This document shows, in pieces, positions 26,882-30,021 of a stretch of DNA of 64,000 nt. Position 1 is the stretch's first letter. Every line of letters starts with the position of its first letter. Below the pieces are notes generated by a model that searched no databases, was not told the DNA's origin, and worked only from the letters and a program-made list of their open reading frames with translations. The DNA is from Saccharospirillaceae bacterium. Lineage in GTDB: Bacteria > Pseudomonadota > Gammaproteobacteria > Pseudomonadales > Oceanobacteraceae. The DNA lies in NCBI GenBank assembly GCA_022448365.1, contig JAKVCS010000003.1, positions 1,116,001 to 1,180,000 on the forward strand, read 5' to 3'. The position numbers and the translations under genes were made by a program.

Positions 26882-28015
26882 TCAAAGCAAATTATACAGA
26901 TCAGCTAGCAGCTCTGCTGTCTGCCCCCAGCTAATACAAGGATCGGTAATCGACTTACCGTAAGTTAGCTGGCCATCGCCACTTTCGCCATTCATGCCTT
27001 GCTTACCTTCTTCCAGGAAGCTCTCCAGCATTAAGCCAATAATTGCTTTATTACGTTGTTTGTTTTCGAGACCAGCTCGCTGAGAAACCACTGCTTTAGC
27101 GATATCAATCTGACGCAAGTGTTGTTTCTCAGCGTTGTCGTGACTGCAATCGACCATCACCTTGGCGTTTACCCCGCCCGCCGCCAGCGTAGTTAATGAA
27201 GCGGCAATACTATCGGCATCATAATTCGTGATGGTTTGACCCTGAATATTCTTACCACCACGCAATACCAGATGTGTATCCGGGTTTCCTGGAGTGTCTA
27301 ACATGGCAATCTGCCCATCGACATCCAGACCCAGCGTATGGTGACTATGCCGCGCTGAAATCATGGCATTGACTGCGGTGGTTGCCGAGCCATCAGTACC
27401 ATTTTTAATGCCAACCGGCATCGGCAAATGACTCACCATTTCACGGTGAGTTTGTGATTCAGCCGTGCGGGCGCCAATAGCTGTCCAGCTCACCAGATCA
27501 TCCAGGTACAGCATGGTTAATGGATTCAGCGCCTCGGTCGCCAACGGCAGACCAAGCTCTGCCAATTGAATCATTAACTGTCGGGAACGGGTGACACCCT
27601 GCTCCATATTGCCACGACCATCACGTTCCGGATCGTATGCTAAACCCTTCCAACCAATATGAGTACGTGGCTTTTCCACGTAAGCGCGCATCACAATCAA
27701 TAGTTTATCGCTGAGCTGCTCATTTAATGCCGCCAGGCGCTTACCATAATCCAACGCTGCTGCTTCATCGTGAAGAGAACATGGGCCGGTAACAATTAAT
27801 AAACGCTCGTCGTCACCATTGAGTACATCGCGAATTTGCTGGCGCTGCTGGTCAATTTGTAAAACCAGTTCATCGGTTAACGCCAGCTGTTGCTTTAAAT
27901 CGCGTGGCGTACGTACCTTGCGTACTGCCGGATCATTCGCTGCCAGTTTTTCAGACTGCTGATCATCGGCTGGCAGATTGTTTGTTTGATCTAAGGTTGT
28001 CACTGAAGTTGTCAT
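26882..28015 (-). CDS. 3-deoxy-7-phosphoheptulonate (DAHP) synthase, class I AroFGH type
   Basis: DAHP synthase condenses phosphoenolpyruvate and erythrose 4-phosphate, the first step shared by Phe, Tyr and Trp synthesis. The core matches the AroF/G/H class: TGPCSLHD, MRAYVEKPRTHIGWKG, GIKNGTDGS, VMVDCSHDN and the end DPCISWGQT. Which amino acid inhibits it cannot be told from sequence by eye. ATG 28015 gives 378 residues, nearer to the family's 350-360; an upstream in-frame ATG at 28081 adds 22 residues. Both have weak ribosome-binding sites. It is preceded by a long leader with terminator and leader-peptide candidates. Confidence 0.95.
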   Translation of the reverse strand: MTTSVTTLDQTNNLPADDQQSEKLAANDPAVRKVRTPRDLKQQLALTDELVLQIDQQRQQIRDVLNGDDERLLIVTGPCSLHDEAAALDYGKRLAALNEQLSDKLLIVMRAYVEKPRTHIGWKGLAYDPERDGRGNMEQGVTRSRQLMIQLAELGLPLATEALNPLTMLYLDDLVSWTAIGARTAESQTHREMVSHLPMPVGIKNGTDGSATTAVNAMISARHSHHTLGLDVDGQIAMLDTPGNPDTHLVLRGGKNIQGQTITNYDADSIAASLTTLAAGGVNAKVMVDCSHDNAEKQHLRQIDIAKAVVSQRAGLENKQRNKAIIGLMLESFLEEGKQGMNGESGDGQLTYGKSITDPCISWGQTAELLADLYNLL

Positions 28016-28095
28016 CTTTTTCTCACTTAATTTAGCTGTTGTATCTGCTGGATGTTGCTGTTTTATGTTGTACACGTTCATATCTTTTTCTATCG

Positions 28096-28151
28096 AGCCC
28101 GGACTTAACGGCTGTTGGCGAATATCACCAACGACGCATTAAGCCCGGGCT
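28096..28151 (-). promoter_or_regulatory. long stem-loop in the DAHP synthase leader
   Basis: AGCCCGGACTTAA (28096-28108) pairs at 12 of 13 positions with TTAAGCCCGGGCT (28139-28151), and an inner GTTGG/CCAAC pair (28114-28118 with 28128-28132) extends it. On the minus strand it ends 14 nt before the upstream candidate start codon at 28081, so it could influence translation. No T-run follows, so it is not a terminator. Confidence 0.6.
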
Positions 28152-28302
28152 AAAATAGCCAGCAAAGCTAAATCGACCTGCTGCCCTCACGCCTCCGGCG
28201 TCAACAGGTTGAGAAATTAAAATCTTCTGAATGCAGAGTGTTTCCATCTCATTGCTCTCTTCAGTGTGTCGCTTTTTGCTTTTGTGAAAAACGACGACCA
28301 AT

Positions 28303-28340
28303 AAAAAACCCCGACTGGCTGACTACCAATCGGGGTTTTC
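28303..28340 (-). terminator. rho-independent terminator (probable attenuator) upstream of DAHP synthase
   Basis: On the minus strand a 14-bp stem (AAAACCCCGA-T-TGG with CCA-G-TCGGGGTTTT, one T:G wobble) with a 7-nt loop is followed by T6. It lies about 290 nt before the gene and downstream of the leader peptide, with no other gene to terminate except ogt, whose stop is 290 nt earlier. This position suggests premature termination control. Confidence 0.85.
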
Positions 28341-28352
28341 TTGTTCCCTGGA

Positions 28353-28380
28353 GGCAGTCTGGCGTTTCGCCGGGACTGCC
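28353..28380 (-). promoter_or_regulatory. pre-terminator hairpin in the DAHP synthase leader
   Basis: GGCAGTC pairs with GACTGCC and GGCG with CGCC around a short loop. It lies between the leader peptide stop and the terminator, where a pause or protector hairpin is expected in a ribosome-mediated attenuator. Confidence 0.65.
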
Positions 28381-28391
28381 AACTTTACATT

Positions 28392-28547
28392 TTAGCTGGC
28401 GATACCCGACTTCTGACTAAAATAGCCAAAGCCATACCACCAAAAATACACAGGAGCAGCAGCGACCAGACCATTCTTAGCCTGTACTGAATTCGCTGAT
28501 TGATGCTCAGCGATGATGTTTGCGCTACGTGTATTCGAAATATTCAT
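28392..28547 (-). CDS. candidate aromatic leader peptide of the DAHP synthase attenuator
   Basis: A 51-codon frame from ATG 28547 to TAA 28392. Residues 34-43 read YFWWYGFGYF: eight aromatic codons in ten, covering Tyr, Phe and Trp. It ends 12 nt before the pre-terminator hairpin and 52 nt before the terminator. The segment AGTCGGG (28405-28411), 7 nt after the last aromatic codon, can pair with the 5' arm of the terminator (28328-28334) as an antiterminator. Caveats: the ATG has a poor ribosome-binding site, a TTGCAA-N16-TAGTAT promoter would start transcription almost at it, and an overlapping frame (28385-28474, 29 codons, AGG upstream) encodes a hydrophobic peptide, whose shifted codons could mimic an aromatic run. 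Confidence 0.5.
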   Translation of the reverse strand: MNISNTRSANIIAEHQSANSVQAKNGLVAAAPVYFWWYGFGYFSQKSGIAS

Positions 28548-28630
28548 GAGCTTGATACTAATGATCCTGAATCAGATTGCAACCTGCTTTTTAACTGTCA
28601 TTGATGGCTTTTACCTTTTTCCTGCCATGT

Positions 28631-29206
28631 TCAACGCAATTCAAACTCCGTTTGACGGTGATCCAACACCTTAGAAGTGAGGGTAATTTCGCCCGTTTGA
28701 ATCTGATGGCCTTCCAACTCCAACAGCTTTGCCTTGGTCTCAATGCCGCCAGCGTAGCCACGTAACGCGTTATCAGAGCCAATAACACGGTGACAGGGGA
28801 CGACCAGACTGACGGGATTTCTGGCATTAGCACTGGCCACCGCTCGGACGGAACCCGGGTTGTTGATCGCTTCAGCTAACTGCTGATAACTGCGTAACTC
28901 TCCATAAGGAATTTGCTGCAGCGCCAACCAGACTTGTTGCTGGAAATCAGTACCTAATGGCTTGACCGGCAGATCAAACGTCTGCAGTTCGCCGCAACAA
29001 TACGCAGTGACTTGCTGACGACAGCGATCAACCCAGTCAGCAATATCGGTATTCTGATTCGCCTGCCCCGGCTGAAAACGAATACTACGGATCACATCCC
29101 TCTCTCCTCGGATCACGATATCACCCAACGGGGACGCGACAACCAGGCAAACAGGTCCTTCTCGCTGAGTTATTTTTCCTGGGGTGCGAGCATGCAATAC
29201 CGGCAT
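28631..29206 (-). CDS. ogt: methylated-DNA-protein-cysteine methyltransferase
   Basis: It repairs O6-methylguanine and O4-methylthymine by moving the methyl group to its own cysteine. The 191-residue product has the active-site PCHRVIGSDNALRGYAGG and the helix-turn-helix RAVASANARNP. There is no Ada N-terminal regulatory domain. GGAG lies 6 nt before ATG 29206. It is upstream of the DAHP synthase leader on the same strand. Ogt and AdaB-type names are both in use for such proteins. Confidence 0.93.
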   Translation of the reverse strand: MPVLHARTPGKITQREGPVCLVVASPLGDIVIRGERDVIRSIRFQPGQANQNTDIADWVDRCRQQVTAYCCGELQTFDLPVKPLGTDFQQQVWLALQQIPYGELRSYQQLAEAINNPGSVRAVASANARNPVSLVVPCHRVIGSDNALRGYAGGIETKAKLLELEGHQIQTGEITLTSKVLDHRQTEFELR

Positions 29207-29433
29207 TTGTTACTCCAATTACAACTGAATGACCCTTGCTACGAGGCAAGATTCGATAGCTTACCCTGATTATTACGCCTGACCGGTAGTTTTGAGTAAT
29301 CAATGCACTCTGACACGGAATTAAATTGAGAATTGGCCTAATATGACAGCCTGCGCGATCAATTTGCCTATTCAGCTAACGGGATAAGCAGAGTATGATC
29401 CGCGCGCCTTTACGATACGATCAGAGACAACGT

Positions 29434-30021
29434 ATGCATACCACCATGTTTGACACCCCGATCCTGAAGACCCTTCTGCGCTGGATATCCATCCTTGCGT
29501 TGAAACTGGCTGGCTGGAAAGCCGAAGGGGAAATTCCAAAGGATCTGAAAAAGTGCGTCATGATTGCGGCGCCGCACACCAGCAACTGGGATCTGCCTTT
29601 TATGCTGTTTATCGCGTTTAAACTCCGAGCGAAAATTTACTGGATGGGTAAAGAGCAAATATTCAAGCCTCCTTTTAAAAGCCTGATGATGTGGATGGGT
29701 GGCGTTCCTGTTGATCGCTCCAAAGCCAACAATATGGTTCAGGCATCCATTGACGCGATCAATGAAAATGATCAACTGTTTTTGATAGTGCCACCAGAGG
29801 GTACTCGTTCGAAAGTAACGTACTGGAAAACAGGTTTCTACCACATTGCACACGGTGCGGATGTTCCTATCCTGATGGGGTTTCTGGATTACAAAAATAA
29901 GCGCGGTGGCATTAAAGGTACCTATACCACTACCGGAGATATCGAAACCGACATGGAAGAAATTAAAGGCATTTACGCTGCGATCAGCGGCAGAAAAGAA
30001 GACCAATATCACGCCAACTGA
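29434..30021 (+). CDS. lysophospholipid acyltransferase family (PlsC-like) protein
   Basis: The product of about 195 residues has the acyltransferase motifs HTSNWD (HX4D), MWMGGVPVDRS and PPEGTRSKV. It is shorter than typical PlsC (about 240) and matches the small 1-acylglycerol-3-phosphate acyltransferase-like group, so the true substrate is open. Starts at 29395, 29434 and 29446 are possible; none has a strong ribosome-binding site. I prefer 29434 because the hydrophobic N-terminal helix then begins normally. Confidence 0.8.
   Translation: MHTTMFDTPILKTLLRWISILALKLAGWKAEGEIPKDLKKCVMIAAPHTSNWDLPFMLFIAFKLRAKIYWMGKEQIFKPPFKSLMMWMGGVPVDRSKANNMVQASIDAINENDQLFLIVPPEGTRSKVTYWKTGFYHIAHGADVPILMGFLDYKNKRGGIKGTYTTTGDIETDMEEIKGIYAAISGRKEDQYHAN

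Follow-up and report, generated by a model that had tools for sequence, protein, structure and literature searches.

The window, by which we mean the whole analysed stretch of 64,000 nucleotides, carries a 51-codon leader ORF (uORF1; 28547-28392, minus strand) that encodes MNISNTRSANIIAEHQSANSVQAKNGLVAAAPVYFWWYGFGYFSQKSGIAS. The C-terminal part of this 51-residue peptide is VYFWWYGFGYFSQKSGIAS, and the run YFWWYGFGYF lies at 28448-28419 (minus strand). A hairpin (28380-28353), a terminator (28339-28303) and a DAHP synthase gene follow the leader ORF in this order, all on the minus strand. The features, with the evidence used to place them in brackets, are as follows.

28555-28582, minus strand: predicted promoter, with -35 TTGCAA at 28582-28577, a 16-nt spacer and -10 TAGTAT at 28560-28555
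28392-28547, minus strand: leader ORF uORF1, 51 codons, probably leaderless (ORF list, relatives, codon bias)
28419-28448, minus strand: sensor codons YFWWYGFGYF, biased to TTT, TAT and TGG (codon counts, Markov control, ribosome walk)
28394-28410, minus strand: segment A, the tail of the ORF, candidate partner of B if not covered by a ribosome (folding, helix scan, covariation)
28369-28383, minus strand: segment B, partner of A or C (folding, helix scan, covariation)
28353-28363, minus strand: segment C, partner of B, or of D as antiterminator (folding, helix scan, covariation)
28321-28339, minus strand: segment D, 5′ side of the terminator (folding, helix scan, covariation, relatives); within it GGTAGTC at 28327-28321 (minus strand), partner of C
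28303-28318, minus strand: segment E and T run of the intrinsic terminator (relatives, covariation)
26882-28081, minus strand: DAHP synthase gene, class I (AroF/G/H type; TIGR00034, NF009395 and PF00793 matches)

All six frames of the window were searched for stretches with at least 8 aromatic residues in 12 codons. The leader run was the sole such stretch, and a first-order Markov control gave 2 stretches in total in 20 replicates of 64 kb. The leader region 28560-28296 folded with a z of -5.7, with none of 200 shuffles as good. A simple terminator scan of 27800-30000 did not list the leader terminator, probably because the stem absorbs the T run; the terminator is nevertheless supported, because the fold and the relatives show it. 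The aromatic leader ORF and the terminator upstream of DAHP synthase are real, which confirms the first-pass annotation of a 51-codon frame with all three aromatic residues before a hairpin and terminator.

DAHP synthase genes were sought in 35 relatives, in 390 genomes of the order (27 at E ≤ 1e-110) and in named genomes, for which the best 80 of 482 matches were used. Loci were selected on enzyme similarity, and the leader was not a criterion. The close ortholog group comprised 114 loci (L001-L016 and L031-L128; some genomes occur twice), and 113 were scored because L055 was not oriented by the script. A leader ORF and terminator were found upstream of the orthologous DAHP synthase at 112 of the 113 scored loci. 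The single miss, L094, came from a wrong ORF chosen by the script; L094 and L055 also carry the leader ORF. At the paralog loci (L017-L030) the pair was found in 0 of 14. Among the best 80 of 482 named-genome matches, the hosts were Thalassolituus, Oceanobacter, Oleispira, Bacterioplanes, Marinobacter, Parashewanella, one Shewanella, Methylophaga, Pseudomonas, Halopseudomonas, Alloalcanivorax and Salinisphaera.

The leaders were split into two groups by whether the peptide ends in WFS. Group 1 is the window type, often ...YFSQ.PG., and group 2 is the Pseudomonas type, ...GYWFS. After identical leaders were dropped, 50 group-1 and 47 group-2 leaders were kept (97 in all). A class-wide model search with strict filters gave matches in 32 of 369 genomes at E ≤ 0.01, and 30 loci were inspected. 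The four best (L129, which is the window, and L130-L132) have an aromatic ORF with DAHP synthase downstream; the other 26 matches showed no DAHP synthase motif and were taken as chance terminators. A window-type leader and enzyme were also seen in Parashewanella/Shewanella and Methylophaga (L039, L041, L055), apart from the remaining hosts. From the sequences, leader and DAHP synthase gene may have been transferred together.

The coding signal of the leaders was then compared. Phe, Tyr and Trp all occur within the last 24 codons in 97 of 97 non-identical leaders, the reverse of the pattern that the first-pass annotation had named as speaking against its proposal (aromatic codons unconserved, hydrophobic frame kept). 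The median number of aromatic residues in these 24 codons was 8 in group 1 and 6 in group 2, as against medians of 2 and 4 (group 1) and 2 and 2 (group 2) in the other frames. Their order and number differ among leaders, and the gaps are whole codons. Codon choice was strongly skewed. In group 1, TTT made up 87% of Phe codons in leaders versus 21% in genes, and TAT 91% of Tyr codons versus 21%; the group-2 shares were 85% versus 3% for TTT and 80% versus 10% for TAT. Stops occurred in the +1 frame in 13 of 50 group-1 and 10 of 47 group-2 leaders, and in the +2 frame in 49 of 50 and 47 of 47. Since 37 of the 50 group-1 leaders have no stop in the +1 frame, which is that of the competing hydrophobic ORF, openness alone cannot decide the frame. 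Substitutions at the three codon positions over all pairs (19095, 20998 and 22275) were nearly even, so the rate test alone is weak and the evidence for coding lies in residue type and codon choice. The competing hydrophobic frame, or a frame shift as the origin of the run, which had been listed among the weak points of the proposal, is rejected on the aromatic density and conserved codons in frame 0 and the aromatic-poor other frames.

In order to find the conserved helices, 42 aligned group-1 leaders were subjected to an unguided scan of all 5-bp helices, sorted by doubly changed cells. The antiterminator C:D came out top (21 doubly changed cells, 99% paired), and B:C (17), the terminator D:E (14) and A:B (13, 87% paired) followed, all within the top ten lines. 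Helices outside the model, at columns 104-159 (13 cells) and 105-152 (12 cells), also scored. For A:B and C:D together, covariation was 0.349 versus 0.249 in shuffles (0 of 500) and at most 0.118 in slid versions; 8 pairs versus 4.9 had changed on both sides (5 of 500), 93.4% of cells versus 88.5% were paired, and 40 cells versus 14.1 were doubly changed. For B:C and D:E the values were 0.179 versus 0.120 (0 of 500), 5 pairs versus 3.3 (43 of 500), 95.6% versus 92.5% and 34 versus 13.8. Counts of pair types showed no excess over shuffles (177 of 500 for A:B and C:D; 432 of 500 for B:C and D:E). The shuffle counts are not probabilities, because the sequences are kin, and as C is common to B and D, changes propagate through three segments. 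The A:B register slips, the outer pair failing in 16 of 41 leaders and another pair in 9 of 41. In group 2 the scan returned the terminator, a GGGT:ACCC helix spanning the stop, B:C, and C:D with few changes. Covariation among the 42 group-1 leaders supports an antiterminator that is mutually exclusive with the terminator.

A different antiterminator had been proposed for the window, in which 28405-28411, right after the run, pairs with the 5′ terminator arm (A:D). The window does have this 7-nt complementarity, but relatives do not keep it as a pairing. Among the aligned leaders 78.7% of the A:D cells were paired versus 78.3% in shuffles, with 4 doubly changed cells versus 3.3; 135 of 500 shuffles were as good in pairing and 362 of 500 in covariation, and the modelled probability was 0.00. 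This pairing is rejected on covariation and folding, and the segment partners B instead. The first-pass annotation had the kind of element and its sensor right, and the pairing wrong.

The effect of ribosome position was modelled by a ribosome walk, in which the transcript with D but without E was folded while its 5′ part was hidden to 13 nt past the first A-site base. In the window, C:D had about 7 bp with the ribosome on codons 34-43; once the ribosome stood between codon 48 and the stop, C:D was down to 2.5-3.2 bp and B:C had about 8. One codon beyond the stop, C:D was again 7 bp. In group 1 the mean C:D over 50 leaders was 11.3 bp with the ribosome at codon -9, which encodes Tyr in 43 of them, and 4.9 bp once it had reached the stop. 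In group 2 it went from 11.1 to 7.6 bp and then up to 9.5 at the stop. The fall was 7.2 bp versus 0.8 in shuffles for 25 of the 50 group-1 leaders and 1.7 versus 0.5 for 24 group-2 leaders. Leader by leader, the shuffle count was at most 3 of 60 in 10 of 25 group-1 and 3 of 24 group-2 leaders and 11 of 60 for the window, and L042 was reversed. With footprints of 9, 11, 13, 15 and 17 nt, a C:D fall above 1 bp was obtained in 46, 45, 45, 42 and 35 of 50 group-1 leaders and in 30, 31, 22, 21 and 16 of 47 group-2 leaders. In the footprint test of the window, C:D went from 10.1 to 5.5 bp at 13 nt, from 10.1 to 9.8 at 15 nt and from 10.1 to 10.1 at 17 nt, so that the window responds to footprints of 9-13 nt but no longer to those of 15-17. 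In the model, ribosome position would switch the fold clearly in group 1 and weakly in group 2, and the predicted switch appears robust across window-type relatives, the window itself being sensitive to footprint size. When no ribosome was placed and the folded stretch began with the final 150 nt of the leader ORF region, antiterminator probability exceeded 0.5 in 39 of 50 group-1 and 45 of 47 group-2 leaders. Such antitermination without a ribosome means that repression needs efficient leader translation. The modelled default without translation would be read-through, the reverse of the trp arrangement.

The start of group-1 leaders was also examined. The predicted -10 of the window ends 7 nt before the leader ATG. 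A -35/-10 pair ending 6-8 nt before an in-frame ATG was found in 44 of 50 group-1 and 0 of 47 group-2 leaders; over all group-1 loci the same rule picked 51 of 4498 ATGs, leaders counted in. A Shine-Dalgarno (SD) match of at least 4 nt was absent in 48 of 50 group-1 leaders and present in 46 of 47 in group 2. Of the six group-1 exceptions to the promoter rule, L008 starts at the locus end, L005, L007, L010 and L012 have predicted starts further upstream, and L033 is the remaining one. A stricter promoter scan of 27800-30000 found no promoter under its rules. On this sequence evidence, group-1 leaders are predicted to start leaderless, as 44 of 50 look so. The poor ribosome-binding site and the start close to the predicted transcription start, both seen as earlier described, turn out to be a feature common to group 1, with its predicted leaderless start. 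Short 5′ UTRs have precedents: in the excerpts of PMC3890552, 4.7% (8/170) of P. putida 5′ UTRs are under 11 nt, and a title cited in PMC4046766 has the leader peptide of C. glutamicum ilvBNC formed without a ribosome-binding site.

Taken with the F/Y/W codons in 97 of 97 leaders, the switch modelling supports the original proposal, and the leader is very probably a ribosome-mediated attenuator of DAHP synthase whose input is the combined charging state of tRNA-Phe, tRNA-Tyr and tRNA-Trp. The mechanism that we infer from the computed parts, conservation, codon bias, covariation and modelled folding would involve a leaderless start, ribosome stalling, termination in the cell and a response to each amino acid. 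The transcript would begin at or beside the AUG, and a ribosome would load on the leaderless mRNA. If any aromatic tRNA were undercharged, the ribosome would slow on YFWWYGFGYF and leave segment A free; A:B pairing would release C, C:D would form, the terminator D:E would be blocked and the gene transcribed. With all aromatic tRNAs charged, the ribosome would reach the stop and cover A, B:C and D:E would form, and transcription would end. Because relatives have the same leader and switch design, the cell probably gauges Phe, Tyr and Trp together. If true, a single RNA switch takes in signals from three amino acids at the first step that their pathways share.

Part of the group-2 loci correspond to a family filed as a small RNA, Rfam P15 (RF00627), whose entry, as we take it, notes a location before a DAHP synthase gene. 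RF00627 matched 7 of 20 relatives above its gathering score (7 of 9 in group 2 and 0 of 11 in group 1): L057 2591-2709, L084 2649-2766, L067 1083-1203, L086 2776-2893, L103 2688-2807, L091 2745-2864 and L065 2687-2804. The window stayed below the gathering score. A model built from group-1 leaders only (R1) found 13 of 13 group-2 loci tried and 0 of 12 paralog loci; 12 of the group-2 loci scored 28.0-46.7 bits, where reverse-strand noise reached 27.4 at most, and L057 scored only 19.5. These matches and the same gene context suggest that window-type and P15-type loci share descent. The two types have the same place, leader ORF kind, hairpin and terminator, and differ in that group 2 is SD-led (46 of 47), has no promoter 6-8 nt before the ATG, and is filed as an sRNA. 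The locus might instead hold a trans-acting small RNA that lies before DAHP synthase by chance, the leader ORF being incidental. Beside the RF00627 matches, this is favored by the presence of P15 in a list of sRNAs detected by Livny et al. (excerpts of PMC2375449). We regard it as very unlikely, since the match runs from the uORF1 aromatic codons into the terminator (L057 and L084 checked), a terminated attenuator would resemble an sRNA, and a cis role is needed to account for the conserved residues, the biased codons and the constant position ahead of DAHP synthase. An additional trans role of the leader RNA beside the cis role is possible. If the attenuator reading is true, it explains what an orphan sRNA family of Rfam does, which is relevant to aromatic-compound production in Pseudomonas.

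The leader peptide might instead arrest the ribosome as TnaC does, sensing free aromatic amino acids and not tRNA charging. The tail is well kept in parts (in group 1, F+1 Ser 46 of 50, F+2 Gln 45 of 50, F+5 Gly 48 of 50), and its Ser and Gln lie outside the pairing roles tested. On the other hand, the residue before the Gly, at F+4, is P, S, L, R or Q while 43 of 50 leaders keep the pairing G as the third base of its codon, indicating that the RNA and not the peptide is under constraint. As the order and number of aromatic residues vary among relatives, codon sensing fits better than a fixed arrest peptide, and peptide arrest is very unlikely. Neither of the two window uORFs nor any of the peptides from three relatives passed the cut-off of any peptide family, and the sub-cut-off Pfam rows Toxin_8 and DUF2752 were dismissed as chance.

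A plain terminator with a chance ORF, or with another coding frame (28474-28385), to which the +1 frame open in 37 of 50 group-1 leaders could point, is scarcely credible, since the aromatic density lies in frame 0, stops close the +2 frame of 49 of the 50 leaders, and the 14 paralog loci have no such leader. A T-box or metabolite riboswitch was rejected, as no Rfam family except P15 reached its gathering score at the leader in the window and 20 relatives.

The attenuator reading places the leader in a known kind. In enterobacterial trp, pheA and pheST attenuators, ribosome position selects the antiterminator or the terminator; each senses one amino acid, is SD-led and terminates without translation. 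By comparison, the modelled window leader would read through without a ribosome, and its relay has an extra segment; termination without translation, as in the four-segment trp type, was not found in the model, and the SD-led leader ORF of that type was found in 46 of 47 group-2 leaders but was lacking in 48 of 50 in group 1. As for DAHP synthase itself, the excerpts of PMC4046766 and PMC11802643 describe C. glutamicum aroR, a Phe-Tyr-Phe leader attenuator of aroF. By this description, which is all that was compared, it is likewise a leader-peptide attenuator with aromatic codons at DAHP synthase, but is actinobacterial, is reported to answer Phe limitation and not Tyr, and has no Trp named. 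Attenuation of E. coli aroF was hypothesised by Camakaris (1980; as cited in the excerpts of PMC2659441 and PMC8632094), and a table in PMC2659441 has the entry 'Attenuator sensing tyr-tRNA'. This proposal and the predicted Shewanella aroF RNA motif, compared by description only, also put attenuation at DAHP synthase, but with Tyr only and, in these excerpts, no three-residue leader. Acholeplasma uORFC-13-1 (description in the excerpts of PMC8632094 only) carries Phe codon(s) and is followed by a terminator and aroF, but concerns Phe only and another phylum. In the excerpts that an open-access literature search returned, there was no description of a three-aromatic DAHP synthase leader, nor of P15 as an attenuator. 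The earlier statement that no case had been described thus holds for a mixed F/Y/W run, but a Phe-Tyr-Phe aroF leader is published, as far as these excerpts go, and the Pseudomonas form is in Rfam. What is new is a single run holding three amino acids ahead of a gammaproteobacterial DAHP synthase, together with a relay that has one more segment, a start predicted to be leaderless in one of the lineages, and what P15 probably is. If true, the leader is also a natural test case for attenuation on leaderless mRNA, and the predicted leaderless and SD-led lineages allow the effect of initiation mode to be compared.

Other aromatic genes of the window genome were examined, namely the DAHP synthase paralog, pheS, a trpE candidate (the single Anth_synt_I_N gene) and two genes for prephenate dehydratase. 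In the 400 nt upstream of each open frame, no ORF with at least 4 aromatic residues in 10 codons was found, except one weak 4-in-10 ORF at the DAHP synthase paralog; this threshold would miss a classical two- or three-Trp leader. NF008085 (PRK10820.1), which we take to be the TyrR model, gave matches in 9 of 9 genomes, mainly in the ATPase part, and scored over the cut-off in 0 of 9 (control, 1 of 14). If true, the attenuator reading suggests how aromatic synthesis may be controlled without a recognisable TyrR.

A second short ORF lies between the terminator and the DAHP synthase gene. Its features are as follows.

28125-28247, minus strand: uORF2, METLCIQK...GRFSFAGYFSPGLMRRW (located via a CGATTT string after the terminator)
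28175-28167, minus strand: CGATTTAGC in uORF2
28096-28151, minus strand: long hairpin covering the last codons and stop of uORF2 (folding)

A short ORF found by CGATTT after the terminator was present in 20 of 50 group-1 and 43 of 47 group-2 loci (one spurious match excluded), usually preceded by an SD-like purine run. As CGATTT served as search bait, its frequency in uORF2 is not independent. By aromatic density alone, uORF2 was found at 40 of 47 group-2 loci, 39 with R-F as CGATTT, and at 3 of 50 group-1 loci, 2 with R-F as CGATTT. An aromatic-dense leader role of uORF2 in group 1 was rejected on this count, which also implies that the window uORF2 is only moderately aromatic. In group-2 genes, CGA makes up 3% of CGA plus CGC, and TTT 3% of Phe codons; since both are rare, the CGATTT string looks constrained. 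A hairpin over the uORF2 end was found in 17 of 20 group-1 loci, a count that has no shuffle control. Accessibility of the DAHP synthase ribosome site showed no clear difference between a ribosome on W-R-F and one at the end of uORF2, so hiding of that site is not supported. uORF2 was absent from L056 (Marinobacter) and from 15 of the 17 loci of family f20 (L112-L128). We offer only tentatively a wider reading in which all of the following would hold at once: a leaderless three-tRNA sensor at the pathway entry replaces TyrR-type or single-amino-acid control, it works as a five-segment relay with a reversed default (untranslated leader, gene on), and uORF2, with its fixed R-F codons and hairpin, is a second checkpoint, the Pseudomonas form having been misfiled as an sRNA.

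Some further observations were made around the gene. The first ATG of DAHP synthase is at 28081, and another ATG in its frame, at 28015, comes with a 4-nt SD match, so that there are two possible starts; in the relatives L010 and L011, an ATG reading MTT... resembles this 28015 start. In Shewanella sp. OPT22 (L041 872-963, minus strand), an SdsR_RyeB sRNA match lies close to the DAHP synthase locus. The gene at 26867-26196 (minus strand), 14 nt past DAHP synthase, has a Pfam Scramblase match (PF03803), an odd neighbour that is perhaps co-transcribed with DAHP synthase.
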